Positions 4,750 through 19,374 of a stretch of 26,737 bases of DNA are shown piece after piece. Under the pieces are notes generated by a model, which saw only the letters and a program-made list of their open reading frames with translations, ran no database searches and was not told the origin of the DNA. Source of the stretch: a virus. The stretch spans positions 1 through 26,737 of IMG/VR virus record IMGVR_UViG_3300042352_000489; one strand, given 5' to 3'. The translations under genes and the position numbers were made by a program. Position 1 is the stretch's first letter. Every line of letters begins with the position of its first letter.

Positions 4750-4772
4750 TTCTTCTTTATAGCTAAGAGGTG
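4750..4772 (-). promoter_or_regulatory. Candidate phage RNA polymerase promoter, leftward
   Basis: Read on the minus strand the site is CACCTCTTAGCTATAAAG followed by AAGAA. It differs at only one of 23 positions from the site in front of the TerS cluster (14705-14727) and shares CACCTCTT and TAAAG with the sites at 8204 and 19350. The predicted +1 is the G opposite 4755. Oddly it points leftward, antisense to the genes from 4638 down; the nearest leftward genes are phoH and beyond. Confidence 0.6.
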
Positions 4773-4799
4773 GGAGGTTAACAAACTAAGGAGAGAACC

Positions 4800-4865
4800 A
4801 TGTGCCCACCCTGTAACAACAACTGTAATCAAGGTAGAGATTGCCCGGCGAGGAGGACGAAATGA
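4800..4865 (+). CDS. Tiny cysteine-rich protein, 21 aa
   Basis: The peptide MCPPCNNNCNQGRDCPARRT has four cysteines (C2, C5, C9, C15) and a basic tail. It starts 7 bases after AAGGAG and ends in an ATGA overlap with the next gene. Small proteins with a C-N-Q-G-R-x-C-P-x-R core recur in phage and bacterial genomes. They may bind zinc, but their role is unknown. The ribosome site, coupling and recurring motif together make this a real gene rather than chance. Confidence 0.7.
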   Translation: MCPPCNNNCNQGRDCPARRTK

Positions 4866-5191
4866 CCAACTACAACGACGGAAAAATCCACGGCTGGAAC
4901 GGTGGCGACTGTCCTGTGCATCCTGAGACTGAGGTTAGAGCGTGGCGGAGAAACTTGGGTTTGCCTATTTTATGGCAGGCTAAACTTATTTCATGGCGGC
5001 ATGACTATGGTGACGCAGATATCATCGCCTTCCAAGTGGTCAAACAGCATGTCGAGCCGAAGGTGATCTGGGTGAATGAGACGAAAGGAGGCGGCTTGGT
5101 GACCTTCACATCAAAAGAAGCCGCCCTTCGCTATGTCAGCCCTCACGATGTCCGCATCGCCGTGAAGTATGTAGAGGCAAGAGATGACTGA
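4862..5191 (+). CDS. Hypothetical protein, 109 aa, in GC-richer segment
   Basis: I start at ATG 4862, behind GAGGAGG and overlapping the preceding stop; the frame is open further upstream but without a ribosome site. The protein begins MTNYNDGKIHGWNGGDCPVHP and continues as a mixed alpha/beta sequence ending VKYVEARDD. Codon use here (GCG, CGG, CGC, GTC) is clearly GC-richer than in the neighbouring genes, which suggests recent transfer. Its first nine codons resemble those of the next gene. Function unknown. Confidence 0.7.
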   Translation: MTNYNDGKIHGWNGGDCPVHPETEVRAWRRNLGLPILWQAKLISWRHDYGDADIIAFQVVKQHVEPKVIWVNETKGGGLVTFTSKEAALRYVSPHDVRIAVKYVEARDD

Positions 5192-5351
5192 CTACAACAA
5201 CGGGCAAATCTGGGAAATGATTTGGAGACTCCTGCACTGGATTGGTCTGCATAAAAACAAGGTTAGCCGAGTCCATGTCACTGATCGCGGTCACATCGTA
5301 TTTGAAACGCGCTGCATGATTTGCGGAAGACTGGGGTGTCATTATGACTGA
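5184..5351 (+). CDS. Hypothetical protein, 55 aa, with C-terminal cysteine cluster
   Basis: The start overlaps the upstream stop and follows GAGG. The product MTDYNNGQIWEMIWRLLHWI has an amphipathic Trp-rich helix and ends in RCMICGRLGCHYD, with three cysteines and a His that could bind a metal. The opening MTDYNNGQI echoes MTNYNDGKI of the previous gene. Composition is GC-rich like its neighbours. No family recognised. Confidence 0.6.
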   Translation: MTDYNNGQIWEMIWRLLHWIGLHKNKVSRVHVTDRGHIVFETRCMICGRLGCHYD

Positions 5352-5754
5352 CGCACCAGAACGGATTTGGATTGCTCCTTGGCGCGAAGGCGATTGGAGC
5401 GAGGGCGATTGGGACGACAACGAGGGCAAGACGCTGAACGATAAGCCTTGCATCGAATACGTCCGCGCCGATCGCATCGAAGCCCTTGAAGCCAAGCTAG
5501 GTTACTACAACTTACTTTGGCAAGCCTACGAAGGAGAACGCCCAGTAGATCACCTTGAAGAAGCAATAAAGACTCACTCTGCTGTTTCTGATCGACTAGC
5601 TGAAAAACTACACAAAAAGGAGCTACTTCTCGAGAAGACTCTAGAGTTATTAAAATCAGTATTAGGTTACAATAGCTCTATGCACAGTGGTGCTGGAGTT
5701 TACAATAAACGTATCAAAGACCTCATAGCAGAAATCAAAGGAGAAAACAAATGA
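5344..5754 (+). CDS. Hypothetical coiled-coil protein, 136 aa, chimeric composition
   Basis: The N-terminal half (MTDAPERIWIAPWREGDW, then YVRADRIEALEAKL) is of a type I associate with alphaproteobacterial phages and prophages, and its DNA is GC-rich. From about 5500 the DNA becomes AT-rich like the rest of the window, and the protein turns into a long helical region (DRLAEKLHKKELLLEKTLELL). The switch falls inside the gene, pointing to a recombination joint. It starts 8 bases inside the upstream gene. Function unknown. Confidence 0.7.
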   Translation: MTDAPERIWIAPWREGDWSEGDWDDNEGKTLNDKPCIEYVRADRIEALEAKLGYYNLLWQAYEGERPVDHLEEAIKTHSAVSDRLAEKLHKKELLLEKTLELLKSVLGYNSSMHSGAGVYNKRIKDLIAEIKGENK

Positions 5755-5927
5755 GACTGAACGAGTACATCAACCAAGTCTACAAGGCTATCCTGTTTAT
5801 GTTTGGTCTTTCTTTGCTGCTTGACCCTACTTCGCTAGGAGAATGGAAAGCTAAGATGGACATTGGTTACGACTCTATCTGGTCTGAGTACGTATACGAC
5901 TGTGACTGTACAGAGGAACTGGAATGA
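5751..5927 (+). CDS. Small membrane-associated protein, 58 aa
   Basis: An AAGGAG site precedes the ATG, and the 3' end overlaps the deaminase start (ATGA). A short hydrophobic segment (KAILFMFGLSLLLDPTS, about residues 12-28) could insert in the membrane. The rest is acidic and ends with a DCDCTEELE motif. Function unknown. Confidence 0.6.
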   Translation: MRLNEYINQVYKAILFMFGLSLLLDPTSLGEWKAKMDIGYDSIWSEYVYDCDCTEELE

Positions 5928-6340
5928 ATGATCAGGATCAGTTCTACTTTGGACTAGCGCAAGAACAAGCTTCTTGGTCTCTAGATCCTAACAAAAAAGT
6001 AGGTTGCGTAGTTGCAAGAAACGGTAGAGTCCTTACTAGAGGCTTTAACCAGTTTCCTAAAGGTATCGCTAACACCGATGCTCGTTGGGCTGACAAAGAG
6101 TATAAGAACCTAATTGTAGTGCATGCAGAGACTTATGCTCTTCTCTCCTCTAACGACTGCCACGGAGCCACTCTTTACTGTACCAGCTTTCTCTGCAGTA
6201 CTTGTGCAGGGTTAGCTATACAGCGAGGAATCAGTAGAGTAGTAGCACCTGCACCTGAACCTTGGTCTTCTTGGTATCGTAACTTCACAGTAGCACGATC
6301 AATGCTACAAGAAGCAGGAGTGACAATAAACTATGTGTAA
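5924..6340 (+). CDS. dCMP deaminase-like zinc enzyme
   Basis: This 138 aa protein carries H67-A-E69 (VVHAETYA) and C91-x2-C94 (FLCSTCAG), the zinc ligands and catalytic Glu of the dCMP/cytidine deaminase superfamily. The usual Pro before the first Cys is Leu here. The N-terminal SWSLDPNKKVGCVVARNGRVL strand pair is typical of the dCMP deaminase branch (compare ComEB-like and T4 Cd), which converts dCMP to dUMP for dTTP synthesis. It is distinct from the deaminase at 3292. Translation is coupled to both neighbours. Confidence 0.88.
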   Translation: MNDQDQFYFGLAQEQASWSLDPNKKVGCVVARNGRVLTRGFNQFPKGIANTDARWADKEYKNLIVVHAETYALLSSNDCHGATLYCTSFLCSTCAGLAIQRGISRVVAPAPEPWSSWYRNFTVARSMLQEAGVTINYV

Positions 6341-6533
6341 CGACTGCCGCATAGATCCTTTGAACTCTTACACAGAGTTCGACGGAACCGTTTGGTACTA
6401 TCGATGTCGAGACTGGAGACACATCGAGCGTTCCTTAGACAACTCAACTTGGAAAGAGATAACTGATGAAGACCTAGCAGAGATGAGTGAAAATCACATG
6501 CAGTACGTGGAGTCTCTACTGATTCCTTTCTAA
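6333..6533 (+). CDS. Hypothetical protein, 66 aa
   Basis: The start overlaps the deaminase end. The N-terminus has C2-x2-C5 and a later C25 (MCNDCRIDPL..., WYYRCRDWRH), a possible metal site, and an acidic helical C-terminus. No family recognised. Confidence 0.6.
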   Translation: MCNDCRIDPLNSYTEFDGTVWYYRCRDWRHIERSLDNSTWKEITDEDLAEMSENHMQYVESLLIPF

Positions 6534-6547
6534 ACAAAGGAGGTAGC

Positions 6548-6904
6548 ATGCTAGAAAGCGTACTATGCTTAGCCCTAGCTCTCTACCACGAAGCTCGTTC
6601 AGAAACTATCGAAGCCCAGTTACTTGTAGCTGAGGTTATCATGAACAGAGTTAAACACGAAGACTTCCCAGCAACTATTTGTGAGGTAGTCTACCAGCCT
6701 AAACAATTCGCTTGGTCTGACAAAGACCTGCCTATTACTGAAGCTGTCTTCTTAGACTCAGTAACCATGGCAGGAGAAGTATACTGGGGTCACACAGAGT
6801 TACCTGGTACTGAAGCTTTGTTTTTCCACAGTGGATCTCGTAAAGGTTTCTTTAACACTAGAAAAAGGATCGGACGCTATGGCGAACATACGTTCTATGA
6901 GTAA
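6548..6904 (+). CDS. SleB-type cell wall hydrolase (endolysin)
   Basis: This 118 aa protein matches the Hydrolase_2/SleB family, which cuts peptidoglycan. The signature LALALYHEARSET (catalytic Glu at residue 15) is followed by a helix and VAEVIMNRV, FPATICEVVYQPKQFAWS and a C-terminal FFHSG strand. It is a bare catalytic domain with no wall-binding domain. A hydrophobic start could act weakly as an export signal. The ribosome site is AAAGGAGG. No holin is recognisable next to it. It is the only clear lysis enzyme in the window. Confidence 0.9.
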   Translation: MLESVLCLALALYHEARSETIEAQLLVAEVIMNRVKHEDFPATICEVVYQPKQFAWSDKDLPITEAVFLDSVTMAGEVYWGHTELPGTEALFFHSGSRKGFFNTRKRIGRYGEHTFYE

Positions 6905-7058
6905 AGCAGAGTTTAACCTGATAAAGGAGCACAAGGCTTGGAACGAAGACGACTGGGACCATCATGAACACATGAGCTATTCAGAGGCTCCATCAGCAAT
7001 CACTAATCCCTTTTACGTTGTATTTGGGAAAGACACCTTGGGGGTAAAATGGCAGTAG
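6879..7058 (+). CDS. Hypothetical protein, 59 aa
   Basis: I choose ATG 6879, behind AAAGGATC, inside the lysin's 3' end; ATG 6897 is an alternative without a good site. The product is a helical start (MSKAEFNLIKEHKAWNEDDW) and a His/Asp-rich centre (DDWDHHEHMSY) that might bind a metal. Its end overlaps the next start by ten bases. Function unknown. Confidence 0.55.
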   Translation: MANIRSMSKAEFNLIKEHKAWNEDDWDHHEHMSYSEAPSAITNPFYVVFGKDTLGVKWQ

Positions 7059-7648
7059 TACTAAAGTATCTAAAAGAAGGTGATGTTCTAAAGCATCGAC
7101 GTAACAAGGTGCCTCTTGAAGTCTACAAGATTCATCTTAGAAATGACAGAGCAGACACAGCAAGTTGCCGTCCCTTAGAACGTTGGGAAGGTCAAGACTA
7201 CAATACTAAAGGTTTAAACGATTGTACCTTGTATGATGGTGATAACTACAGCCTAAGCAACTACACAGTAATCGGCAACACAAAAGAGGAAAAGAAAACC
7301 ATGTCTAAGCTATTCAAAGTTATCGGTGAAGAAGTGTATGGTATCCACATCGGTACCAATACTGCTGGTGAGCTAGTACTTGAGATTCGCGGTGACGCTA
7401 ACAACGCTATCAAGGCATTTAAGAAAGATGCTCTTGAGGAAGTGAAACCTTATACTGTTAAACTTGTACCGTTGGCTGGAACAGGTAATCCTCGTCATGC
7501 TACTGTTGAAAAGGATAAGCTGAAACAGAATGATGTTATTGTGTATGGCGCTACAATTTGGACTGTAGCGGAGCTAGATACTAAGCAAGATAACTGTTCT
7601 GAGTTGTCGGCTAAAAACTGCAAGCGTCTTGTCGTAGGAGAACTGTGA
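7049..7648 (+). CDS. Hypothetical two-part protein, 199 aa, with possible internal start at 7301
   Basis: The first 80 residues (MAVVLKYLKEGDVLKHRRNK...) look like a small beta-barrel. The rest starts MSKLFKVIGEEVYGIHIG at an internal ATG (7301) with its own AAGAGGAAAAG ribosome site, and contains a second beta-rich domain (VEKDKLKQNDVIVYGATIWTVAEL). The internal start suggests two products from one frame or a recent fusion of two genes. No known family. The stop overlaps the next gene. Confidence 0.65.
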   Translation: MAVVLKYLKEGDVLKHRRNKVPLEVYKIHLRNDRADTASCRPLERWEGQDYNTKGLNDCTLYDGDNYSLSNYTVIGNTKEEKKTMSKLFKVIGEEVYGIHIGTNTAGELVLEIRGDANNAIKAFKKDALEEVKPYTVKLVPLAGTGNPRHATVEKDKLKQNDVIVYGATIWTVAELDTKQDNCSELSAKNCKRLVVGEL

Positions 7649-7977
7649 TGAAAGTAGATAACGTAGCCTCGTGCTGTACTGCTGTGGTCCTGTCTAGCTT
7701 TCGCTTTGATGGTGATGGAGTTCCTGCTCAAGGAGCTGATTATAACTATCCAGGCATGAAAGTTGAAGAAACTAAAGAAGCTTTGCTAAATGAAATGCTA
7801 AAGCTTAAAAACGAAGGAAAGGCTATGGTTACAGCCTTTACCAACGACAAACAAGTAAAAGCTAATGCCTTCTTGAAAGACATTGGTTTTAAATCCACTA
7901 AGTGGGCAACTAAAACATCACATGCAAACACCCGGTTGAAACTGTGGTGGTTTGCTCTTGACAAACTGGAGACATAA
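7648..7977 (+). CDS. Hypothetical protein, 109 aa
   Basis: ATG 7648 is preferred to GTG 7645 because GTAGGAGAA is better placed. The protein has an N-terminal strand with two cysteines (VASCCTAVVLSSF), two helices (VEETKEALLNEMLKLKNEG) and an AFLKDIGFKSTKW stretch slightly reminiscent of an acetyltransferase end, too short to assign. Function unknown. Confidence 0.65.
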   Translation: MKVDNVASCCTAVVLSSFRFDGDGVPAQGADYNYPGMKVEETKEALLNEMLKLKNEGKAMVTAFTNDKQVKANAFLKDIGFKSTKWATKTSHANTRLKLWWFALDKLET

Positions 7978-8160
7978 ATGGCTAAGAAACCTGTAACTAA
8001 AAAAGTAGAAACTTTTGATGTTGAAATCGTTAGTAACGGCTTTGTCCTAAACTACTCAGGCAAAGATGAAGACGATGAGTGGACTTCAACGAAAGAAATT
8101 GTGACTACACTTGAAGGACTGCATCAACGTATCGACAAGATCGTAGAGACTATGCAGTAA
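7978..8160 (+). CDS. Hypothetical protein, 60 aa
   Basis: The start touches the upstream stop (TAAATG). The protein has a basic opening (MAKKPVTKKVETFDVEIV), a beta hairpin and a C-terminal helix (LEGLHQRIDKIVETM). It is the last gene before the hairpin and promoter at 8168-8228, so it ends the rightward accessory operon. Function unknown. Confidence 0.65.
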   Translation: MAKKPVTKKVETFDVEIVSNGFVLNYSGKDEDDEWTSTKEIVTTLEGLHQRIDKIVETMQ

Positions 8161-8167
8161 TAAACTT

Positions 8168-8204
8168 GAGAAGGCTGGCTGTGTGACTAATGGCTGGCCT
8201 TCTC
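8168..8204 (+). terminator. Strong hairpin, probable transcription end or processing signal
   Basis: GAGAAGGCTGGC (8168-8179) pairs with GCTGGCCTTCTC (8193-8204) in a 12-pair stem with two G-U pairs and a 13-base loop. No T-run follows, so it is not a textbook intrinsic terminator. It closes the upstream operon exactly where the phage-type promoter at 8204 starts. It could instead be a processing or stability element. Confidence 0.5.
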
Positions 8205-8228
8205 ACCTCTTAACGCTAAAGCAGAAAG
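8204..8228 (+). promoter_or_regulatory. Candidate phage RNA polymerase promoter, rightward
   Basis: The 25 bases read CACCTCTTAACGCTAAAG then CAGAAAG and match the site at 19350 at 24 of 25 positions. The spacing of 17 bases from the first C to the G after TAAA is that of T7-class promoters, and CGCTAAAG resembles the CACTAAAG of the phage T3 promoter. The predicted +1 is G8221, giving a 12-base leader before tRNA-Arg. Confidence 0.72.
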
Positions 8229-8232
8229 GTAT

Positions 8233-8308
8233 GGCTCCGTAGCTCAGCAGACAGAGCAAGAATCTTCTAAATTCTAGGTCGGGTGTGCAATTCACCCCGG
8301 AGCTGCCA
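8233..8308 (+). tRNA. tRNA-Arg (anticodon UCU)
   Basis: The acceptor GGCTCCG (8233-8239) pairs with CGGAGCT (8298-8304), starting with a G-U pair, then discriminator G and an encoded CCA. The D stem is GCTC/GAGC and the anticodon stem AGAAT/ATTCT, with loop CTTCTAA and anticodon TCT. The T stem is GGGTG/CACCC. The T loop TGCAATT has G where nearly all tRNAs have U55. It reads AGA/AGG, which this AT-rich phage uses often. It lies directly behind a promoter-like site and in front of a homing endonuclease. Confidence 0.93.
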
Positions 8309-8325
8309 TTAAAAAGGAAACTAAT

Positions 8326-8892
8326 ATGGGATGGGAACATTTACATAAAAATAATGAAATTAAAAAACAAAAAGCAGAACAGTTAAAAAATGAATTTCTT
8401 AATAAACCTCTTAATGAAATTTTTGAGTATAAAAATGGAGAAATTTACTGGAAAATTGTTCATCCTATGTGTAATAATAAAAAAGTAGGAGATCTTGCTG
8501 GAAATAAGAGCAGTAAAGTCTATTTCGAAGTAACAATTGCAGGTAGTCCTTTTAGAGTTCATAGGATAATCTGGCAAATGTTTAATGGTCCTATACCTGA
8601 AGGATACTATATTGATCATATAGATGGGAATCCTTCTAACAATAAACTAGAGAATTTAAGGTTAGCTAATCAAAAAGAAAATTCTAGAAATTCTAAAAAA
8701 CCTAAAAATAATACTTCTGGGTATAAAGGTGTTCATTGGAATAAAGAAAAAGAAAAATGGCAAGCTAGAGTAATGATAAATACGATAACTAAACATATTG
8801 GTTATTTTGAAGACCTAATAGAAGCTGCAAAAGCTTATAACGAAGCAGCTTTAAAATACCATGGTGAATTTGCTAAACTAAATGAGATATAG
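8326..8892 (+). CDS. HNH homing endonuclease with AP2 DNA-binding domain
   Basis: This 188 aa protein combines an HNH_3-type nuclease core (about residues 84-122: FRVHRIIWQMFNG, then IDHIDGNPSNNKLENLR, where DH and N are the His-Asn-type catalytic elements) with a C-terminal AP2-like DNA-binding domain (GYKGVHWNKEKEKWQARV, IGYFEDLIEAAKAYNEAA). It is markedly more AT-rich than its neighbours, typical of a mobile free-standing homing gene. It has its own AAAAAGGAA ribosome site and sits just behind the tRNA-Arg, a common insertion context. It probably cuts the allelic site in related phages lacking it. Confidence 0.93.
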   Translation: MGWEHLHKNNEIKKQKAEQLKNEFLNKPLNEIFEYKNGEIYWKIVHPMCNNKKVGDLAGNKSSKVYFEVTIAGSPFRVHRIIWQMFNGPIPEGYYIDHIDGNPSNNKLENLRLANQKENSRNSKKPKNNTSGYKGVHWNKEKEKWQARVMINTITKHIGYFEDLIEAAKAYNEAALKYHGEFAKLNEI

Positions 8893-8905
8893 CTAAGAGG
8901 CTAAC

Positions 8906-9082
8906 ATGGATTCAGGAAATCACGAAAAAGCTAACTGTGACGTTCGTCTTGGTGTTCGCCCTCACTGTCGCTGTTGTGCAGGTGGTGATCTTCGTAAAGG
9001 GCGCAAACATACTCGTGCAACTAGCACATACCAAACTCAAAAGCATAAACGTGCTAAACCAAAGTCAAAGGATCATCGTTAA
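8906..9082 (+). CDS. Small basic Cys/His protein, 58 aa
   Basis: The ATG follows AAGAGG by five bases. The N-terminal part has cysteines and histidines spaced for metal binding (C11, then H20-C21-x-C23-C24), and the remainder is very basic (KGRKHTRATSTYQTQKHKR...). It may bind nucleic acid. A longer frame overlapping this one is a shadow. A similar basic composition occurs in the 11784 gene, without clear homology. Function unknown. Confidence 0.65.
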   Translation: MDSGNHEKANCDVRLGVRPHCRCCAGGDLRKGRKHTRATSTYQTQKHKRAKPKSKDHR

Positions 9083-9087
9083 AGTAT

Positions 9088-9179
9088 GGAAGTGGGCGTT
9101 GGGACGCAGGAGGGCCTTATAATCCCTTTAGCAGTAGATGACTGTTCTGGACCGAGATCGAAACTCGGCACTTCTACCA
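9088..9179 (+). tRNA. Degenerate class II tRNA or tRNA-like element
   Basis: The acceptor GGAAGTG (9088-9094) pairs fully with CACTTCT (9169-9175, one G-U), followed by A and an encoded CCA. The T arm is CCGAG-ATCGAAA-CTCGG, and a long variable arm is formed by AGCAGT/ACTGTT. The anticodon arm AGGGC-CTTATAA-TCCCT has a C-U mismatch at its top and presents UAU in the anticodon position, odd for a long-arm tRNA (Leu, Ser or Tyr). The D arm is abnormally short (GCGT-TGGG-ACGC). It may be a decayed tRNA, an atypical tRNA or a tRNA mimic. Confidence 0.6.
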
Positions 9180-9198
9180 ATTCAACAAAGGAAAACCC

Positions 9199-9468
9199 AT
9201 GTTTAGTTTTTTCTCTCGGAAAGAAACAAACACAGAAAAGTACGACAAGATCATTGCAGGGCCAATTGACTTTTTAATTGACAACTCAAGTTACCCTATA
9301 ACAGACGAATTAGAAGCTATGCTAGAAAAGTATAGAAAGGCTAAACAAGAAGTAAGAGCTAACTTTACTAGAGAAGTAGAAAAAATAAAAAATAAAAAGC
9401 AAGCAGAGCTCGAAAAACTTAGTAACGAGCTAGAAACTTACCTCATGTCTAAAAAAGCTAACCTGTGA
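9199..9468 (+). CDS. Hypothetical coiled-coil protein, 89 aa
   Basis: AAAGGAAAA precedes the ATG. After a short hydrophobic start (MFSFFSRKE) the protein has a strand-like middle and a long charged helix from about residue 36 to the end (YRKAKQEVRANFTREVEKI...), probably a coiled coil. No family recognised. Confidence 0.65.
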   Translation: MFSFFSRKETNTEKYDKIIAGPIDFLIDNSSYPITDELEAMLEKYRKAKQEVRANFTREVEKIKNKKQAELEKLSNELETYLMSKKANL

Positions 9469-9486
9469 AATACAAGGAGCAAAACA

Positions 9487-9669
9487 ATGCATCTGATTGA
9501 GTTGTCATATTACATTCGCAAAATGATGTCTATTGAAAGAAAAGTTCTTAATAAGAAAAAACTACTATGGAATATCGAGTGGACGACTTATCAACGAAAA
9601 GCTGCAAAGCTTTGTAGTCTACCCGAAGCATCAGACGATCAAAAACGTTTGGTGTTTCGACACGTATAA
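9487..9669 (+). CDS. Hypothetical basic protein, 60 aa
   Basis: The start has a strong AAGGAG site. The product is helical and basic (SIERKVLNKKKLLWNIEWTT, then YQRKAAKLCSLPEAS) without a membrane segment. It is the last gene before the terminator at 9677. Function unknown. Confidence 0.6.
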   Translation: MHLIELSYYIRKMMSIERKVLNKKKLLWNIEWTTYQRKAAKLCSLPEASDDQKRLVFRHV

Positions 9670-9676
9670 ATAAAAC

Positions 9677-9695
9677 GGGGGGCTTCGCGCCCCCC
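9677..9695. terminator. Bidirectional intrinsic terminator
   Basis: GGGGGGC (9677-9683) pairs with GCCCCCC (9689-9695) around a small TTCGC loop, 8 bases after a stop codon. On plus it is followed by ATCTTATT and a T6 run further on; on minus by GTTTTATTTAT. It ends the 8906-9669 block and would also catch leftward transcripts from terL. Confidence 0.8.
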
Positions 9696-9736: not shown

Positions 9737-9952
9737 ATGACTATCATATTTGACTACCATGCAGGAGAAGTTTACGTTGAAAATCCCGATCCTCGTGCAG
9801 AGGGAACTCAACATGCTAAAATCTACTACTTCCAATCTGGAAGGATTCCTTTAGAACAATCTAAAGTAGTAGTCTCGGCTTTGCGTGATATGTACAACCT
9901 TGGTAAACAACACCAACAAAAAGAGATCCGAAAAGTACTTGGTGTTAATTAG
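9737..9952 (+). CDS. Hypothetical protein, 71 aa
   Basis: TGGGAGAGA precedes the ATG. The protein is beta-like at first (MTIIFDYHAGEVYVENPDP) and ends in a helix with the phrase ALRDMYNLGKQ. That ending resembles AYTLGK in the protein at 24029-24373 and FELGRSWK in the 2457 and 2945 proteins, possibly a shared helical tail. Its last four bases overlap the end of terL tail to tail. Function unknown. Confidence 0.6.
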   Translation: MTIIFDYHAGEVYVENPDPRAEGTQHAKIYYFQSGRIPLEQSKVVVSALRDMYNLGKQHQQKEIRKVLGVN

Positions 9953-11304
9953 AACATTGAGCTAACAACAATACTAGGTCTTGAATGAACAATCGGCCAG
10001 AGATAGTCTACAAAATAACGAACTCCGTCAGTGTAGTGCTCTACACCTTGAGTCTTGTCAATTGTAGCTGTTTCTGGTCGGTTTTCAAGCCAGCTAGTAC
10101 GCTCAAAAGAACTGATTAACCCAGTACAACGAGGATGAATCAGCATGTCTACATCACCATCAGCATTAAGGAGTTTCCGATTAACAGCAGCCACACTATC
10201 AACAATAGCGGGAGCTTTGTCTTTCGCCAGTACGGTAAATCCCGCCTCGCGGAGTATGCTGAAGTCTGTCACGCCCACAGCTGCAGACGTCTTCCGGGCC
10301 TTCCCAGCAGGGTCTGGATAGCAGACGATCTTATTTTTAGGGAATTTGGAACGAATGAGACGGGCAAGTTCCTCAGTGTTAGCCGTGCCTTTTGACTCGT
10401 CAAGAGTATGCACTTGTCCACCTCGAATAGCGTGGAAGCTTGTAGCGTTAAGCATGATGTTAAAGTCGATAGCACAGTGTACTGTTTCATCTTCCTCAAA
10501 GTAAGGTAAATCAGGATCAACATGGAGTTTACGAGAAAATGTATGGAACAGCGTTAGACCAGACTCTTCGAAGCTTGCTTCATATTCACGAGCAAACTTT
10601 AGAGGATCGCTATGCTTCTTAGCCTTCTCAATTTCTTCTTCAGACAACAGTGGGCTGTCTTTGTAGGAGTAAGAAAAAGTCTTCCAACGATCGTCGATAT
10701 GCTCACGTTGAGCAAGATCATAAAAGTAGTCTTTACCAAGAGGCGTACTTGGAAGAAGTGCACGTCCAGGGCTAGGAGCGCCTACTGCAGCTGCCTGCTT
10801 TGGACTCCAACGAGTAATAACACAAGGCTCGATAACAGACTCCCACGCATCCTTGATTGATCCACCGGGGACTTTCCAAGAAGGTAGTTCGTCTGAAATT
10901 ACTAAGTACTGACCTGAACCACGAAGTCGTTCATAAGCGTCTGCTGACCAACAACGGATTTCTGTACCATTTGCAAAGATAAATTTACCGAGACTGCGTG
11001 AATGCTTCCAACAACGACTCTCAAGTCCAAACTGGTAAGCTAGCATAGGCCAGTAAATGTCGGTTACCTGTGTATGGCTACCGCATAGAAGAGCAATGTT
11101 TTTGTTGGGAACAGATTCGTTAAGCGTTTCTAGTTCACCTACTGCAAGAGTAACAGCAGCACCAGAAACATAAGACTTGCCAAAACCACGAGAACCAACA
11201 ACTACAGCAAAGCGCATCTTCCAATCTTCTGTGTTAGGCTCCACTGGTTTAAACAAATGGTGAATCACCTCAGATTGGGCGCGATGTAATTTAATAACTG
11301 ACAT
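9949..11304 (-). CDS. terL: Terminase large subunit (TerL)
   Basis: This 451 aa protein is the packaging motor ATPase and nuclease. Walker A is G37-S-R-G-F-G-K-S44 and Walker B YLVISDE (D138, E139). The coupling motif STPLG is at about 186-190. The RNase H-like nuclease acids are D280 (CAIDFN), D331 (YPDPAG) and D426 (EHYTDGVRY). The start has AGGATATCCC upstream. It is on the strand opposite to its neighbours and is split from TerS (13984) by a 2-kb rightward block. The start faces the HU-like gene's start with only 11 bases between. Confidence 0.96.
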   Translation of the reverse strand: MSVIKLHRAQSEVIHHLFKPVEPNTEDWKMRFAVVVGSRGFGKSYVSGAAVTLAVGELETLNESVPNKNIALLCGSHTQVTDIYWPMLAYQFGLESRCWKHSRSLGKFIFANGTEIRCWSADAYERLRGSGQYLVISDELPSWKVPGGSIKDAWESVIEPCVITRWSPKQAAAVGAPSPGRALLPSTPLGKDYFYDLAQREHIDDRWKTFSYSYKDSPLLSEEEIEKAKKHSDPLKFAREYEASFEESGLTLFHTFSRKLHVDPDLPYFEEDETVHCAIDFNIMLNATSFHAIRGGQVHTLDESKGTANTEELARLIRSKFPKNKIVCYPDPAGKARKTSAAVGVTDFSILREAGFTVLAKDKAPAIVDSVAAVNRKLLNADGDVDMLIHPRCTGLISSFERTSWLENRPETATIDKTQGVEHYTDGVRYFVDYLWPIVHSRPSIVVSSMF

Positions 11305-13349: not shown

Positions 13350-13369
13350 GGGGGGCTTCGCGGCCCCCC
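13350..13369. terminator. Bidirectional intrinsic terminator between convergent blocks
   Basis: GGGGGGC (13350-13356) pairs with GCCCCCC (13363-13369). On the minus strand the stem is followed by TTTTTTATT, a textbook terminator for the TerS block. On plus the U-run is poor, but A6 precedes the stem. It lies exactly between the convergent ends of the plus (13341) and minus (13377) operons. Its core is nearly the same as the terminator at 9677. Confidence 0.85.
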
Positions 13370-13376: not shown

Positions 13377-13514
13377 TTAAAGTTCTAAGAATTTTTTAAT
13401 TCTAGCAACCATAATGTCGCCTTGTGGTTTTTTAAGAAGTTCTTTATATAGAGCTTCAAAGGGATCCTTTGGTTCTAGCTTAAGCACTTCTTTTTGTGTT
13501 TCTTTATTTAGCAT
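13377..13514 (-). CDS. Hypothetical 45 aa protein
   Basis: The frame starts at ATG 13514 behind a strong AGGAG, overlapping the end of the upstream gene by 11 bases, and stops 8 bases before the terminator. The product MLNKETQKEVLKLEPKDPF... is a charged helical protein ending VARIKKFLEL. Last gene of the TerS operon. Function unknown. Confidence 0.65.
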   Translation of the reverse strand: MLNKETQKEVLKLEPKDPFEALYKELLKKPQGDIMVARIKKFLEL

Positions 13515-13767
13515 TTTTAACTCCTGACACAATAATTGGAACAACATAAGTATTAGCAGAACGTCTTACTCCGCTAACAATGTAAGAGATTTTTTCTCCC
13601 TCATGTTGTTCAATAAAAGACTTTAATTCTGACCAGTCTTGATAGTTGAAAATTCGACCAAGAAGACTGTTTGTCTGTTCATGAGTTAAATCACGTGCAA
13701 ACACCATTTCTTGACGTTTAGTTTTTGGCGATAACCAAGTTAATTGGATTTCATAATAAGCAATCAA
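13504..13767 (-). CDS. Hypothetical protein, 87 aa
   Basis: I start it at TTG 13767, which overlaps the upstream TGA (TTGA) and has AAAGG in front; the longer open frame lacks a ribosome site. The product starts MIAYYEIQLTWLSPKTKRQ and contains WSELKSFIEQHEGEKISYIV and a VSGVRRSANTYVVP strand, a small alpha/beta fold. The gene style fits a small virion or packaging accessory, but this is position only. Confidence 0.7.
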   Translation of the reverse strand: MIAYYEIQLTWLSPKTKRQEMVFARDLTHEQTNSLLGRIFNYQDWSELKSFIEQHEGEKISYIVSGVRRSANTYVVPIIVSGVKNAK

Positions 13768-14015
13768 TGCAGTACCTTTAGTTCTAAGTCGTAAGCATCT
13801 ATAGGTTCTTCTTCTGGTTGACCATAAGCTACTCCCTCTATTATAAACCCTTCTGGAAAAAATCCAAAACAAAGTTTAGCAATAGAAGGTGTAATCTTGT
13901 CATTTAGAAGCAGTTTAATAGACTCAATACAAACCTCTTCAGAATGTCTAGTGCCTACAAGAATAGCCTCAGACAACTCTTGATCAGGTTTTCGGATAAT
14001 TAGTTGTAAAATCAT
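13764..14015 (-). CDS. Hypothetical protein, 83 aa
   Basis: The gene starts 32 bases inside the end of TerS and is coupled to the next by TTGA. The product is MILQLIIRKPDQELSEAILVG... followed by CIESIKLLLNDK and a FFPEGFIIEGVAYG strand. Mixed alpha/beta, soluble. Function unknown; co-transcription with TerS suggests a packaging or morphogenesis role. Confidence 0.68.
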   Translation of the reverse strand: MILQLIIRKPDQELSEAILVGTRHSEEVCIESIKLLLNDKITPSIAKLCFGFFPEGFIIEGVAYGQPEEEPIDAYDLELKVLH

Positions 14016-14475
14016 GTTCTAATACAATCTTAATAGGTTCTCGAATATCTGCCGACTCTACTGTAAGTGTAGGTGCTTTACCATACCGGTAAGGCAGCAG
14101 GCTCTCAAGAATTCTCATTTTACAGTTAATAAGATTGTTAATAACCATGATTCTTGGGTTTGTCATTCCTTGCTCTTTAGCTAGGAGTTCTTCAATATCA
14201 TCTAGTTGTTTAACTAACTCTTCGAGAGGATCAAAATCTAGATCTCTTAGTTTGTCGGTAGCCGCTCTGTGAGCCTTTGCTCCTGAGCCTTTTCTAAAGC
14301 CACCGCCTTCTTCGTAGTCTTTTAGCATTGCGATAGCCCTTTCGTTGACTTTGTATGCTTTAAAAGGTTCTCTAAACTCGCCTGTTTTAGGCTCATAACC
14401 TTTCCTATAACCAGCAAAGTTAGAACCTGGCTTGTAATGACCAGGTCTTGCCTTATTGTACTTTTTCTTGGCCAT
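13984..14475 (-). CDS. Probable terminase small subunit (TerS)
   Basis: This 163 aa protein has a very basic N-terminus (MAKKKYNKARPGHYKPGSNF), a helical centre and the phrase LINCKMRILESLLPYRYGKAPTLTV, which is typical of small terminase subunits. TerS recognises the packaging site and stimulates TerL. No clear helix-turn-helix can be seen, so the DNA-binding part may be the basic N-terminus. It lies on the same strand as TerL but 2.7 kb upstream, separated by oppositely oriented genes. Assignment rests on composition and the LLPYRYGK motif. Confidence 0.7.
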   Translation of the reverse strand: MAKKKYNKARPGHYKPGSNFAGYRKGYEPKTGEFREPFKAYKVNERAIAMLKDYEEGGGFRKGSGAKAHRAATDKLRDLDFDPLEELVKQLDDIEELLAKEQGMTNPRIMVINNLINCKMRILESLLPYRYGKAPTLTVESADIREPIKIVLEHDFTTNYPKT

Positions 14476-14692
14476 AGTCCATAACTTTTACAGTGACAAT
14501 CTTATCTGTTAGAGTTACAGAATAAGGATCGAGTGAGTCAATAACTGACCAAACTTCCTTCATTGAGTCTAGTAACATAGTCTCAGAAATGAAGTCAAGC
14601 TGAGTAGCAGCCTTTGTTTTTACGATGATAAGGTTTAACTTGTTAGAAAGGGCAGCAGCTACTTTATTTTCGAAATAGTCGGAATAGTTCAT
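14453..14692 (-). CDS. Hypothetical protein, 79 aa; first gene of the TerS operon
   Basis: The start is ATG 14692 behind AAAAGGAGAAC; a longer open frame runs into the promoter and is rejected. The product MNYSDYFENKVAAALSNKL... is alpha/beta with an acidic centre (SVIDSLDPYSVTLTDKIV). It is transcribed from the leftward promoter-like site at 14705-14727, with a 5' leader of about 18 bases. Function unknown. Confidence 0.7.
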   Translation of the reverse strand: MNYSDYFENKVAAALSNKLNLIIVKTKAATQLDFISETMLLDSMKEVWSVIDSLDPYSVTLTDKIVTVKVMDYGQEKVQ

Positions 14693-14704
14693 ATGGTTCT
14701 CCTT

Positions 14705-14727
14705 TTCTTCTTTATAGCAAAGAGGTG
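14705..14727 (-). promoter_or_regulatory. Candidate phage RNA polymerase promoter, leftward
   Basis: On minus the site reads CACCTCTTTGCTATAAAG then AAGAA, one base different from the 4750 site. The predicted +1 is opposite 14710, leaving room for the AAGGAG site and ATG at 14692. This placement directly in front of the TerS operon, between divergent genes, is the best support for promoter function. The right end also contains the GAGGTG ribosome site of the plus-strand gene at 14733. Confidence 0.75.
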
Positions 14728-14732
14728 AAAAC

Positions 14733-15308
14733 TTGCTAAAATCTAACGCTCTTGGACTACCTAGCCTGCTTGAAGCAGACAACAAAACACATAATGCTGA
14801 AGAGGTGTTGCAATCTTTTTTCAAGCTAACTAATACAAACTCGTTAATGATTAAGAACTACAAAGATCTTAAAGAGCTTAAAGAACTGAGAGAGTTTTAT
14901 AATAATTTCTCGCTGAAGGTTGTTGAAAGTAAAAAAGTAGCTTTCTTTACTAAACATTTACCTTACTTTACTTCTTGGGGAGCTGACACTGATGTTAAAC
15001 GTAAGCTACCTATCGAAGCTAAAGTGGCCAACCTAGACAATAACCTTTTAATTGTAAACGTGATATCAAAAACCAATCGTTATAGAAAAGGTATTTCTAA
15101 AGAACAATTTAAAAAAGAAATTTACACTAAAGATTATGAGTATGTAAGTTTTGTAGATGGAGGCTATTCTACAAGATCTTTTTGTATACCGCACTTAGTT
15201 AACATGGGTTTCAAACTTGTAACTGGTTTTCAAGTTAACAAACTATCCTCTACTATTCGTAACAATTGGGATCTTAAAGAAAACATCTTAGTTCTTGCAA
15301 AGGAGTAA
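14733..15308 (+). CDS. Hypothetical protein, 191 aa
   Basis: Starts at TTG 14733 behind GAGGTG. The product is a mixed protein: helical at residues 10-55 (DLKELKELREFYNNFSLK), then LPYFTSWGADTDVKRKLPIE, VANLDNNLLIVNVISKTN and a KEQFKKEIYTKDYEYVSFVDGG stretch. No cysteine cluster or membrane segment. As first gene of the early plus-strand operon ending at RNA polymerase it may be an early host-takeover protein, but that is position only. A host promoter is expected upstream and I cannot identify it. Confidence 0.7.
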   Translation: MLKSNALGLPSLLEADNKTHNAEEVLQSFFKLTNTNSLMIKNYKDLKELKELREFYNNFSLKVVESKKVAFFTKHLPYFTSWGADTDVKRKLPIEAKVANLDNNLLIVNVISKTNRYRKGISKEQFKKEIYTKDYEYVSFVDGGYSTRSFCIPHLVNMGFKLVTGFQVNKLSSTIRNNWDLKENILVLAKE

Positions 15309-15311
15309 GCT

Positions 15312-15632
15312 ATGAGTTACGAGCTAAACAAGACTTACTACTGGCAGCATAGACCTGTAGTGCTGAAATCTATCTGGATGGAAGAGGGGAAACTGTATGG
15401 AGCTGTAAGTTATACAGGCCCGTTTGGACACGGTGCTGGGTATCAAGTAGTACGACTAGAAAACCTACAATTAGTTCTAAAAGTAAGAAAGAAAGTAAAC
15501 CTAACACTTAAATTGTTAGAAACCAATGAGTTGCAAGTTGAGTTTGTAAACTATCAAGTACCAGAAGCTGAAAAAGAACTATACTATCAAGTCACTTTCG
15601 AAGTAGAGGTGGAAAACAATGCCCAAGTATAA
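15312..15632 (+). CDS. Hypothetical protein, 106 aa
   Basis: Starts three bases after the upstream stop with AAGGAG in front. The product is beta-rich (YYWQHRPVVLKSIWMEEGK, GAVSYTGPFGHGAGYQVV, VNLTLKLLETNELQVEFV). It overlaps the next gene by 14 bases. Compact beta-barrel style; function unknown. Confidence 0.68.
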   Translation: MSYELNKTYYWQHRPVVLKSIWMEEGKLYGAVSYTGPFGHGAGYQVVRLENLQLVLKVRKKVNLTLKLLETNELQVEFVNYQVPEAEKELYYQVTFEVEVENNAQV

Positions 15633-15948
15633 GTTTAAAGTAGGCCAAGAAGTGTACCCTGTTGGGTTGAAACGAGTGTTTGTAGAAGGTGGTAAACATC
15701 ATCAAAAGTGGACAGGTAAGATTGTATCTAGACATTACTGTGATGTTCGAGAGACTAACGTTTACCTTGTCAAAACTACACTAGGTATGCTAATGGCGCA
15801 TGAACGAAGCTTAACAGCTCAGAAAGAAAAGCAACTGTGCTATCTGTTGATTCGTGATATCAACGATTACGTGAAGTATGATGAAAAACCAGAAGTAATT
15901 CCAGAAGGCTCAAAGCTAATCTCACTAAGGATGATACCTCATGACTAA
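15619..15948 (+). CDS. Hypothetical protein, 109 aa
   Basis: The sequence MPKYKFKVGQEVYPVG..., with WTGKIVSRHYCD and VYLVKTTLGMLMAHERSL, resembles small SH3-like barrels used for nucleic-acid or protein contacts, then becomes helical. It overlaps the GGCT-like gene by 8 bases. Function unknown. Confidence 0.68.
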   Translation: MPKYKFKVGQEVYPVGLKRVFVEGGKHHQKWTGKIVSRHYCDVRETNVYLVKTTLGMLMAHERSLTAQKEKQLCYLLIRDINDYVKYDEKPEVIPEGSKLISLRMIPHD

Positions 15949-16330
15949 CCTGTTCTTTGTGTATGGTACTTTGAAGAAAAATCAAGGTAACCATATTCTT
16001 CTAAAAGACTGTAAGTATTTAGGTAAAGGGTTAACTCTAAGTAACTACACTGTTTATCACATGGGTTTTCCACAGGCTATGCCTTACAATGATGGATTAC
16101 CCTTACTAGGAGAGTTATATGACGTTTCTTCTGATGAAGTCGTGAGAGCTTTAGATCGTCTTGAGAGCAACGGTCACTTCTATACTCGTGTGATCAGAGA
16201 CGTAAAGATCCTTGATTTCTTTGAGGAAAAAGTAAAGGCTTGGATTTATGAGGTGCCTGACGGTCGTTATGGTGGAGGTGCTCCTTGTCCAGTAAACGAA
16301 GAACATCAAGCTTATGAGTGGAAACGATGA
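15941..16330 (+). CDS. Gamma-glutamylcyclotransferase-like protein (GGCT/AIG2 fold)
   Basis: This 129 aa protein has the hallmark FFVYGTLKKNQGNH near its start (Y-G-T-L, the substrate loop) and the LGELYDVSSDEVVRALDRLE segment, whose Glu corresponds to the family's catalytic acid. The YxVP and WIYEV strands also fit. These enzymes cyclise gamma-glutamyl amines; phage copies may act on other gamma-glutamyl conjugates or antagonise a host factor. It starts inside the preceding gene and its TGA overlaps the next ATG. Confidence 0.85.
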   Translation: MTNLFFVYGTLKKNQGNHILLKDCKYLGKGLTLSNYTVYHMGFPQAMPYNDGLPLLGELYDVSSDEVVRALDRLESNGHFYTRVIRDVKILDFFEEKVKAWIYEVPDGRYGGGAPCPVNEEHQAYEWKR

Positions 16331-16833
16331 ATATCTTTGCTACACATTCTAGTCCAAGGCTCTGCGCTCTTTGGCTAGACGACTTACGAGCTAACAAGAT
16401 GATTCTTGAATCTTGTCAGCTGTTGTCTACTACTATCAACACTGTGCATCCTGATCATGGGTTAAAGACCTACAAAAACTTCAATCCTAATCATCCTTGT
16501 GGGTTGTGGACTCAAGCTAGTAGGCAAAACTTTGCTTGGCTACTAGAGCATACTCGTTGGTTGCTAGAGTTGCGAGGTAAAAAAGATCACAAGTGCTACA
16601 CTAACTACAACTTGTGTAAAGAGTGGTTAACTACAAACTTTTGGAGGTTGCCTAACAACGATGTAATGACCTTTCAAAATTGTGCTGCAAATGAAGGAGC
16701 AGGAATCAACTACAAGAATGTAAAAGACGTACATCTAGCTTATCGTCTTTATCTAAACCATCGTTGGAAAGAAGACAAGAAACCACCTACTTGGTCAACA
16801 GGTGAAAAGCCAAACTGGTGTGACCTACCATAA
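16327..16833 (+). CDS. Conserved phage protein of unknown function, 168 aa
   Basis: The start is ATG 16327, in ATGA overlap with the GGCT-like gene. The layout MNIFATHSSPRLCALWLDDL, KMILESCQLLSTT, HPCGLWTQASRQNFAWLLEH and a C-terminal YRLYLNHRW ... TWSTGEKPNW matches a family I recognise from many phages (start NIF-x5-P-x2-CA-x2-LDD, K-M-x-E-x2-Q-L-L-S-T). I know no function for it. The pattern of conserved His, Lys and Trp residues suggests an enzyme. It lies in the RNA polymerase operon. Confidence 0.75.
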   Translation: MNIFATHSSPRLCALWLDDLRANKMILESCQLLSTTINTVHPDHGLKTYKNFNPNHPCGLWTQASRQNFAWLLEHTRWLLELRGKKDHKCYTNYNLCKEWLTTNFWRLPNNDVMTFQNCAANEGAGINYKNVKDVHLAYRLYLNHRWKEDKKPPTWSTGEKPNWCDLP

Positions 16834-16844
16834 GAGGAAATAAT

Positions 16845-16910
16845 TTGGATCTACTTGCAGCTATTCTTTTGCTTTGTCTTGTACAATTCATTGCAAAGAA
16901 ACAACAGTAA
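16845..16910 (+). CDS. Tiny membrane peptide, 21 aa
   Basis: The TTG at 16845 follows AGAGGAAATAAT. The peptide MDLLAAILLLCLVQFIAKKQ is a single hydrophobic helix with a basic end, a credible phage micro-membrane protein. It stops 66 bases before the next gene. Weak because of its length and non-ATG start. Confidence 0.45.
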   Translation: MDLLAAILLLCLVQFIAKKQQ

Positions 16911-16976
16911 GTCAGATCTAATTATGATTACCTAAAACAGGCACGGAAGTGAATACCTAAGAAGGGGTAATATTAG

Positions 16977-17147
16977 ATGACTAAGAAACTCGAAGATGCT
17001 ACCTTCTCTAAACTAGTCCAAGATATCGACAAAAAGTGGGGACATACCTATGAAAGCGTGAAAGAGGAAGATCTAGTGTTAGAAGCAGCCGAAAAGGCTG
17101 GTTGGGATGGTGGACTACTTATCCTAGAAGAAACACCTAAAAAATAA
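16977..17147 (+). CDS. Hypothetical protein, 56 aa
   Basis: The ATG follows GAAGGGGTAATATTAG. The protein is MTKKLEDATFSKLVQDIDKK..., then YESVKEEDLVLEAAEKAGWDGG, a helical acidic product ending ETPKK. It ends 20 bases before RNA polymerase, so co-transcription is likely. Function unknown. Confidence 0.65.
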   Translation: MTKKLEDATFSKLVQDIDKKWGHTYESVKEEDLVLEAAEKAGWDGGLLILEETPKK

Positions 17148-17167
17148 TAAAACAAAGAGGAAAACTC

Positions 17168-19348
17168 TTGTCAGAAAACTCTATTTTAAAAGCACTTATT
17201 GACGATTTTAATTTTCGTAAAGCTACTCTTAGGGCTGACAGAAACCAATACACCCACTTTCTTAAAGATGAAGACGCACGTAGAATTATTTTGTTCTCGT
17301 TTGGTCACATCATTAAGGGTGTTGAGCGGAAAGCTACGTTGGTTGATCTGGCAGTTACCCTAGGCCGTAGAGTACGACAAAAACTAAGGTTGTCTCGTAA
17401 CAGTACTGCAGCTTGCCATGTTGGCTTCTTTGTGCTAGTCTCATTCTTTGAGATTGGCCTTTTAGAGTACAAACTAGTTAAGACAGATAAGAAGGGTCGT
17501 CGTTCTAAGTACCTTACTTATACTGTTAGCGTTAAAAACAAGAAAGCCTTGTTCGAGCTTTGGGAGGAGTTAAACACTGAAGAAGAGATTGATCTTTTCC
17601 CAGTCAATACTCCTCCTGAACCTTGGACAGGACCTATGCATCCTCTTGGCTACTCTATCATCAAGAAGTCTAGCCCTGAGATTACTAGTAAGATCAACAA
17701 AGAAGAGCATCAGATGTTATTTGATGTTCTAAACAAACTCGGGTCAACTCCTTGGATAATCAACAAGCCTCTTCTGGATGTTATTGAGTATTACATGGAA
17801 GCACCTGAGGAAGGAAACCCTCTAAAATACAAACAAGAAAAGGACTTCGAGAAAAAAGAGAGTCTTTACATCGAGTTGAGTTCTATTCAGCGATTAGCTA
17901 AAAAGAATATCGACAAGGTGTTCTACCATCTTTACAATACAGATTTTCGAGGCCGACTGTATCCTAACACTGCTTTCCTTCATGAGCAGTCTAGTGATAA
18001 CGCTAAGTCTCTTTTACTCTTTGCTAATGGGCAACCTATTGGTGAGGAGGGTCTGTATTGGATGCTGATTCATGGTTCTAATACTTGGGGTAATGACAAG
18101 TGCTCTCTTGATGACCGAGCAGAGTTTTGCCTTCAGAACTATGACTTGTTTCTGTCTTATGCTAGTGATCCTACTCAGAACACTGGCTGGATGAAAGCAG
18201 ATAAGCCCTTCAGTTTCTTAGCTTTCTGCATGGAACTGAAGTTGCTACAAACTTGGTGTGAAGCAGGTAACGAACAAGAGTTGTTTGTTTCTCACTTACC
18301 TCTGTTTATTGACGGTTCAAACAATGGTTCTCAGCATCTTACAGCAATGTCAAAAGATGAAGAGCTAGCCCCTTATGTGAACCTAGTACCTAGTGAAGTT
18401 CCAGGAGATCTGTATGCTCTTGTAGCTGAGAAAGTTTGGAAACGACTTGAAGAACTAGAAATGCGTATCCCTAGCGTGATTTATAATCAACTAGACTACG
18501 TTCTTGAAGAAGCAGAGCGTCTGCAAAAGGAGTATGATGAAGCACCAGCTGGATCCGAACGGAAAGCATTGGCCTATACTTCAGTTCAAACCTGGAGAAA
18601 CAATAATCGTAAACTACGAGAAGCTCTTTATCCCGTCTATTGGAATCGTATCAAAGACTTAAAAGTTCGACGAAAGATTACCAAACGTCCTACAATGACT
18701 TCAGCCTATGGAGCTGTACCTTATGGTATGGGTCAACAAGTCTGGGATGATACTCGCACTATCAATGAGTATCTTGGTCGTCAAGAAAAACTCTGGGCGT
18801 CTATGCTAGGTCGTGAGTTACATGCTGCTTGTTATGAAGACTTAAAAGGTCCCGGTGGGCTTCTAAAGTTGTTCGAGCAAGTTGCTGACCAGTATAATGA
18901 AAAACATGAGTACATGGCTTGGAAGTCACCTGTGACTAACTTCCCTGTAGTTCAAAACTATCGTCAACCAACAAGTAACCGTACTTGGTTATCTTATGGT
19001 GATGCTCGTTTTCATGTTGTAGTTGAAAACTGGGAAGAGTCTACTCTAGACAAAGACTCCCAGAAACTCGGTGCCTCTCCAAACATTGTTCACAGTCTTG
19101 ATGCTGTGCACATGTCTATGGTAGTGCATGCTGCTAGCTTTGATGTAGCTGCTATCCACGACTCTTGGGGTACTACTGCTGGCTCTATGGGAAAACTTTT
19201 TACTTTAGTTCGTGAAAAGTTTGTAGAGCTATACGAAGCTGATCCACTAAAGCACGTTCTAACTCAGTTAGGTTGTGCTTCAATGTTACCTAAACGGGGA
19301 AATCTTGATATCAAGAAAGTTCTTGAGTCTGATTTTTGCTTCTGTTAA
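17168..19348 (+). CDS. T7-like single-subunit RNA polymerase
   Basis: This 726 aa protein starts at TTG 17168 behind AGAGGAAAA. Active-site elements in order: YNTDFRGRLYP (about 256-266); palm FIDGSNNGSQH with catalytic D382; fingers ITKRPTMTSAYG with K506 and Y514, the counterparts of T7 K631 and Y639; a specificity-loop region about 585-625; PNIVHSLDAVH (639-648); AIHDSWGT with D665 (T7 D812); and a foot ending ESDFCFC, like T7's DFAFA. It is about 150 residues shorter than T7's 883, mostly in the N-terminal domain. It lies directly upstream of a promoter-like site that may be its own target. Confidence 0.97.
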   Translation: MSENSILKALIDDFNFRKATLRADRNQYTHFLKDEDARRIILFSFGHIIKGVERKATLVDLAVTLGRRVRQKLRLSRNSTAACHVGFFVLVSFFEIGLLEYKLVKTDKKGRRSKYLTYTVSVKNKKALFELWEELNTEEEIDLFPVNTPPEPWTGPMHPLGYSIIKKSSPEITSKINKEEHQMLFDVLNKLGSTPWIINKPLLDVIEYYMEAPEEGNPLKYKQEKDFEKKESLYIELSSIQRLAKKNIDKVFYHLYNTDFRGRLYPNTAFLHEQSSDNAKSLLLFANGQPIGEEGLYWMLIHGSNTWGNDKCSLDDRAEFCLQNYDLFLSYASDPTQNTGWMKADKPFSFLAFCMELKLLQTWCEAGNEQELFVSHLPLFIDGSNNGSQHLTAMSKDEELAPYVNLVPSEVPGDLYALVAEKVWKRLEELEMRIPSVIYNQLDYVLEEAERLQKEYDEAPAGSERKALAYTSVQTWRNNNRKLREALYPVYWNRIKDLKVRRKITKRPTMTSAYGAVPYGMGQQVWDDTRTINEYLGRQEKLWASMLGRELHAACYEDLKGPGGLLKLFEQVADQYNEKHEYMAWKSPVTNFPVVQNYRQPTSNRTWLSYGDARFHVVVENWEESTLDKDSQKLGASPNIVHSLDAVHMSMVVHAASFDVAAIHDSWGTTAGSMGKLFTLVREKFVELYEADPLKHVLTQLGCASMLPKRGNLDIKKVLESDFCFC

Positions 19349-19349
19349 C

Positions 19350-19374
19350 CACCTCTTAACGTTAAAGCAGAAAG
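19350..19374 (+). promoter_or_regulatory. Candidate phage RNA polymerase promoter, rightward
   Basis: The site reads CACCTCTTAACGTTAAAG then CAGAAAG, with 24 of 25 bases equal to the 8204 site. The centre TTAACGTTAA is a perfect palindrome. The predicted +1 is G19367. It lies two bases after the RNA polymerase stop and in front of the SSB/replication genes, so it probably drives them. Confidence 0.75.

Follow-up and report, generated by a model that had tools for sequence, protein, structure and literature searches.

The single-subunit RNA polymerases (RNAPs) of phages T7, T3 and SP6 carry a specificity hairpin and use promoters with a 23-bp layout from -17 to +6, in which C-7, T-4, A-3, A-1 and G+1 recur (their consensus is given here from general knowledge). 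T7, T3 and SP6 promoters also have A at -6 and an AT-rich element from -17 to -13. Going by title and citation in PMC12272871, Zhu et al. (2025) reportedly used phage genomes to link T7-like polymerases to promoters, a general idea shared by the relation between promoter base -11 and polymerase residue 748 described below. Here, we analysed a 26,737-nucleotide (nt) stretch of viral DNA (positions 1 to 26,737 of IMG/VR record IMGVR_UViG_3300042352_000489), hereafter the window, which encodes a T7-like RNAP and carries four copies of a promoter-like motif. These four sites are very probably T7-class promoters (-17 to ~+6) with a new specificity, CACCTCTT, for the phage's own RNAP, as judged by sequence comparison.

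Among described phages, Klebsiella phage KP34 likewise has a diverged single-subunit polymerase and a very small set of promoters, four in all, although these fall into two unrelated classes, whereas one class was found here (PMC6834552). For phages KpnP, Ro45Iw and CD23823 (PMC12272871) and EM1 (PMC9596486), promoters were predicted from repeated genome sites and then proved active in vitro; the sites described here were predicted from repeats in the same way. The promoters of KpnP, Ro45Iw and EM1 have a T7 core of the CACTATA type and that of CD23823 is of another type, with CACCTCTT in none of them (PMC12272871, PMC9596486). The cultured Naomviridae roseophages DSS3_VP1 and DSS3_PM1 have an RNAP 43-44% identical to that of the window, share structural and replication genes with it and carry a promoter-like family of their own, TAATAGGGTGCGTTAAAG. 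They differ in having more sites (12-13), of which almost all share a strand, in having Lys at the position of T7 residue 748 together with G-11, and in having genes almost all on one strand. No description of Naomviridae promoters was found in the literature searched, and the deposited feature tables of both isolates contained no annotated promoters.

The window contains exactly four copies of the motif CACCTCTT-N5-TAAAG, at 4755-4772 (minus), 8204-8221 (plus), 14710-14727 (minus) and 19350-19367 (plus). With the G of TAAAG set as +1, the first C of the motif falls at -17, and all four sites had the C-7, T-4, A-3, A-1 and G+1 of the ~23-bp T7-class layout, followed by a purine-rich start conserved past +1. 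An earlier sequence-only reading had placed the sites at these positions, with 24/25 bases identical in the plus pair and 22/23 in the minus pair, and had argued for T7 spacing and core from -17 to +1; each of these points was reproduced. The polymerase and the four sites are as follows.

17168-19348, plus strand: T7-like single-subunit RNA polymerase, 726 amino acids
18962-19048, plus strand: RNAP specificity hairpin (residues 599-627), modelled as strands 599-610 and 613-627
8204-8226, plus strand: putative promoter 1, CACCTCTTAACGCTAAAGCAGAA, proposed +1 at 8221, towards tRNA-Arg(TCT) and an HNH endonuclease
19350-19372, plus strand: putative promoter 2, CACCTCTTAACGTTAAAGCAGAA, proposed +1 at 19367, towards replication genes
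14705-14727, minus strand: putative promoter 3, CACCTCTTTGCTATAAAGAAGAA, proposed +1 at 14710, with a leader containing AAGGAG and an ATG at 14692
4750-4772, minus strand: putative promoter 4, CACCTCTTAGCTATAAAGAAGAA, proposed +1 at 4755, towards PhoH and the structural module

The family was sharply delimited. A stricter form of the motif was counted against 30 Markov simulations each of the window and of G001, a 73,778-bp contig of the same phage species, giving four matches in the window and five in G001 compared to none in any simulation. Degenerate copies (1-3 mismatches) showed no excess over chance in the window (18 sites with ≤3 mismatches versus a mean of 14.3 in shuffled sequence), suggesting a sharp family of four with no continuum beneath it. 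The pattern read backwards gave zero matches in the window and eight related records. A fifth, weaker match at 25545-25567 (GACCAGTTACCTATAAAGTAGAA) was rejected as a promoter because it lies inside a conserved coding stretch (V-S/T-Y-K-V-E-L-W) and is best explained by chance or coding; in the equivalent region of relative G007 the upstream half was gone while the codons were kept. Scanning IMG/VR with a short pattern returned at least 117 stretches, many in contigs without a known tie to this group, and these were not used as evidence because chance matches are expected at such a scale.

The TAAAG core is that of T3. Upstream, the sites depart from T7, T3 and SP6, with CACCTCTT at -17 to -10 in place of the AT-rich -17 to -13 element (CACCT in the window clade), G or T rather than A at -6, and only ~5 sites per genome, on both strands. 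CACCT makes the sites less similar to T7 itself without lowering their standing as promoters, since a sister clade (G026/G029) has TACCA at the same positions.

By its modelled structure, the window enzyme is a T7-fold single-subunit RNA polymerase. Its sequence matched PHROG 414 (E=1e-132), PF00940 (E=5e-76) and T7 RNAP in the PDB (E=2e-58), and D382, K506, Y514 and D665 aligned with the T7 catalytic residues D537, K631, Y639 and D812, with no variation at any of the four across 26 aligned sequences. The model had a mean predicted local distance difference test score (pLDDT) of 92 and T7 RNAP as its best structural matches; among the T7 entries listed, 1cez, a promoter complex, had the top query template modelling score (TM-score, 0.76). 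The enzyme is shorter than T7 RNAP (726 versus 883 amino acids). In its specificity hairpin, R605 aligned with T7 R746, and W607 with T7 N748, placing Trp where T7 has Asn. In loci L056-L062 and L261, the RNAP match spanned ~2.7-3.0 kb compared to 2.2 kb, which suggests that those polymerase genes are interrupted by an intron, an intein or another insert.

We further searched related polymerase lineages for sister families, first with T[AT][AT]AG as an anchor across entire contigs and then at the location that follows the RNAP gene; repeat discovery without an anchor in 10-20 kb loci gave too much noise. Wherever a lineage yielded sites, they formed a separate family that shares this layout (C-7, T-4, A-3, A-1, G+1). 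The families included TAATAGGGTGCGTTAAAG and close variants in DSS3_VP1 and DSS3_PM1 (12-13 copies per phage, of which several fall between annotated genes), TAATACCTGACGTTAAAG in another clade, AAATAGGTGACGTTAAAG in G022 and TACCAGGGGACGCTAAAG in the G026/G029/G033 clade. Several sister clades carried the AT-rich TAATA of T7 at -17 to -13, so the claim of the sequence-only reading that the consensus is unlike T7, T3 or SP6 upstream of -8 stands for the window clade and fails for these sisters. T7 promoters read TAATAC from -17 to -12, and SP6 promoters read AGGTGAC from -13 to -7; both recur in sister families, fixing the register of the window sites independently of the argument made in that reading.

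Base -11 was found to vary together with the polymerase. N748 of T7 RNAP is reported to contact -10/-11 (PMC5937735), and the -11/748 pair was picked beforehand from knowledge of T7 and not by scanning all position pairs. For each locus, we took the site just downstream of the RNAP gene, whatever its base at -11. The residue equivalent to T7 748 and base -11 paired as Glu with C (38 loci, L190 included), Trp with T (12), Lys with G (12) and Leu with T (2), with no exception. Grouping the polymerases at 90% identity, with L190 left out, the pairing held in 24/24 clusters carrying a post-RNAP site. The Glu-C site of L190 itself was dismissed as a spurious artefact of a C-run. The genome-wide families of DSS3_VP1 and DSS3_PM1 (Lys, G-11) and G022 (Arg, G-11) agreed with this pattern. 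L050, nested in the Glu clade of the tree, had Leu and T-11 in its two sites, which points to an independent Glu-to-Leu and C-to-T switch. L183, whose RNAP is 82% identical to that of the window, had Leu at the 748 position and kept T-11. Position -7 differed likewise in L070, where Lys at 746 accompanied G-7 in TTATGAGAGGGAGTATAG, whereas Arg746 polymerases have C-7. That sequence was present in L070 in three copies, identical from -17 to +1 (+1 at 6219 (minus), 7243 (minus) and 9224 (plus)), and is a candidate for another cognate promoter family, beside a polymerase 28-31% identical.

Conservation of the sites was also apparent against their surroundings. At orthologous positions the 23-mer was 83-100% identical among relatives, while the upstream 60-nt flanks had 23-62% identity in most comparisons; the flank upstream of the post-RNAP site was an exception, being mostly the 3' end of a coding sequence. 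Positional orthologues of promoter 2, downstream of the RNAP gene, were found in most related lineages, and the promoter 3 site was identical in G002 and G006 with a diverged upstream flank. The sequence-only reading looked to further intergenic copies beyond the window, and it survived this search: one more was found, at 28735 (minus) in G001, at the start of the ribonucleotide reductase (RNR) genes. Its interpretation of the sites as promoters of the window's own RNAP gains support from the polymerase fold, the layout, the sister families and the -11 covariation.

Taken as promoters, the sites would work as follows. The specificity hairpin would read -11 to -7, with W607 at T-11 and R605 at C-7, and the polymerase would open TAAA at -4 to -1. 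Initiation, which we infer together with the exact +1, would take place at the G of TAAAG, giving a GMAGAA start. Approximately five strong sites per genome would be used, serving the tRNA-Arg/HNH unit, the post-RNAP replication genes, the RNR genes (on G001) and a leftward trio of small genes, while one leftward site would direct transcription towards the structural module, antisense to early genes over ~3.9 kb.

Other explanations can be weighed against the same observations. A sharp, multi-copy motif on both strands, with one member (4750-4772) not beside a sense gene, could be bound by another phage DNA-binding protein at operators, replication or packaging sites. We regard this as very unlikely, given that the motif retains T7 promoter spacing and core, is directional with three sites ahead of genes in the right orientation, has a conserved purine-rich start and has a base -11 that follows the polymerase residue. 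A reading as host RNA polymerase promoters, perhaps assisted by a phage factor, is slightly less probable again: TATAAA in 2/4 sites resembles a -10 element, yet the remaining two read CGTTAAAG or CGCTAAAG, CACCTCTT lies too near TATAAA to act as a -35 element, host-type promoter matches were at background (28 versus 33.7 expected), and such a reading would not explain why base -11 covaries with the phage polymerase. The idea that the sites are functionless repeats arising by chance, coding or recombination deserves the least credence, as it conflicts with the zero counts in the controls and with the retention of the sites at orthologous positions of diverged genomes with different flanks; for the four sites it is refuted.

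Several observations nevertheless weigh against reading the sites as promoters of the phage RNAP. There are just five strong sites in the ~74 kb of G001, and most structural genes have none nearby; the window RNAP gene itself has no site upstream, and no sense gene adjoins the site at 4755. The search for a cognate family found none in the group of polymerases at 40-45% RNAP identity (G034, G035, G036 and G038). Finally, the covariation is partly inherited by descent, with few independent switches.

The sites at +1 8221, 19367 and 14710 lie just upstream of correctly oriented genes, the three of four anticipated by the sequence-only reading. The units that they would drive, and the leader of promoter 4, are listed here.

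8233-8308, plus strand: tRNA-Arg(TCT), predicted first product of promoter 1
8326-8892, plus strand: HNH endonuclease downstream of the tRNA (PHROG 99, E=1e-65)
19435-19932, plus strand: first gene after promoter 2, homologue of the DSS3_VP1 gene at 46619-47248 (function unassigned)
21949-23820, then 24754-25497: DNA polymerase, then exonuclease, beyond the 19435-19932 gene
14692-14453, 14475-13984 and 13872-13504, minus strand: three small genes of unassigned function downstream of promoter 3 (13504-14692)
13350-13369: strong terminator-like hairpin, GGGGGGCCGCGAAGCCCCCC-TTTTTT
4595-4755, minus strand: conserved leader of promoter 4, with the hairpin GAAGAAU-GAGA-GUUCUUU followed by two copies of a GGGGG...GGTTNAGTTAGAAG element

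The proposed +1 at 8221 is 12 nt before tRNA-Arg, and in relative G002 a promoter likewise lies 40 nt upstream of tRNA-Arg. Promoter 2 starts 2 nt past the RNAP stop codon, with its +1 (19367) 68 nt before the ATG at 19435. For promoter 3, 18 nt separate the +1 (14710) from the ATG at 14692, with AAGGAG ahead of the ATG, and the hairpin at 13350-13369 would end its transcript after the three genes. A near-identical strong G+C-rich hairpin was present at 9677-9695; both have T-rich ends and lie between convergent genes, and they are probable bidirectional terminators. In G002 (29829, minus) and G006 (6913, minus), a promoter-like site immediately precedes the RNAP gene, an arrangement in which the RNAP would reinforce its own expression.

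The product of the fourth site is probably either the structural-gene transcript or an antisense/leader RNA. Between this site and PhoH, the closest gene in the sense direction, lie ~3.9 kb of opposing early genes. The leader, with its duplicated G-rich element, was present in seven contigs; it opens with an invariant 5' hairpin with a GAGA loop, and its first ~45 transcribed bases and the second element copy were conserved across three sequence types. If the site is a promoter, this conservation and the distance to PhoH would suit a short antisense or regulatory RNA rather than structural-gene mRNA, a reading to which we give somewhat less than even chances. Conversely, 4750-4772 is the only strong site in G001 aimed at the structural module, the interval from there to PhoH showed no strong terminator, and the folding z-score of the leader (-1.3) was unremarkable overall. 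An Rfam search of the window, leader included, gave no match. Without firm evidence, we lean towards the leader of a structural-gene mRNA over a free-standing antisense RNA.

The window is a fragment of the phage also represented by G001, and each stretch sampled was identical there on the opposite strand. Window genes are mostly on the plus strand, with the structural genes on the other strand, starting with PhoH (868-191) and with portal beyond the left end of the window. Megablast of the window against phages gave no match, its relatives there being detectable at the protein level only. In RNAP and blastp comparisons, G001 had capsid, portal, terminase, PhoH, tail, RNR, primase, DNA polymerase and RNA polymerase in common with DSS3_VP1 (Naomviridae), along with a homologue of the tape measure among these core genes. 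At this level, the phage resembles the Naomviridae roseophages, represented by the isolates DSS3_VP1 and DSS3_PM1. The large terminase of DSS3_VP1 (4390-6410, L181) is annotated as two pieces with an open reading frame (ORF) between them, consistent with a possible insertion; a single ORF (9949-11304) encodes the window terminase. DSS3_VP1 also has a further class of repeat, AAAAGTGAGAAAACTAAGGCATCTATAATGA, which ends in a TATAAT resembling a -10 element, at 35795 and 36242 (L118: 13355 and 13802), in or beside gaps between structural genes, and similar repeats occurred in L017, L031, L040 and L062. This sigma-like class was looked for in G001 and G002 and not found. L195 (18580-19091, minus) and L196 (9896-10407, minus) carried a repeat array with ~69 bp spacing containing CTTACCGTTTA(G/A)GTACC.

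The composition of phage DNA also bears on these promoters. DSS3_VP1 DNA contains deoxyuridine (dU) (PMC12697855). For T7 RNAP, dU in the promoter is inhibitory, template T-6 being the most dU-sensitive single position tested (PMC6486633). Most families found here had G, C or T at -6, so that the template base is usually not T, and some sites, such as those of G039, had A-6. A deaminase homologue was present in the window at 5924-6340, and a counterpart of the VP1 dTMP phosphatase was not identified in an enzyme-level look at this phage.

Three points appear most interesting: that both recognition elements changed within one clade, that one site is oriented antisense and has a conserved leader, and how dU-DNA is handled. 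These data provide a promoter map and its putative cognate polymerase for a marine phage group, including two cultured isolates, for which no description of transcription was found. They also reveal a natural series in which polymerase residue and promoter base change together several times, which may help to show how single-subunit polymerases switch specificity and may be a source of orthogonal pairs. Given the dU-DNA of DSS3_VP1 and the inhibition of T7 RNAP by dU, how these polymerases handle dU templates becomes testable. A bolder and, in our estimation, improbable proposal is that the window clade rewired both halves of recognition, replacing the AT-rich -17 to -13 element with CACCT and the Asn748 equivalent with an aromatic residue paired with T-11. 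If true, this would represent a natural, probably orthogonal polymerase/promoter pair, perhaps on a genome with U in place of T, a setting in which a move away from A-6 could be adaptive.

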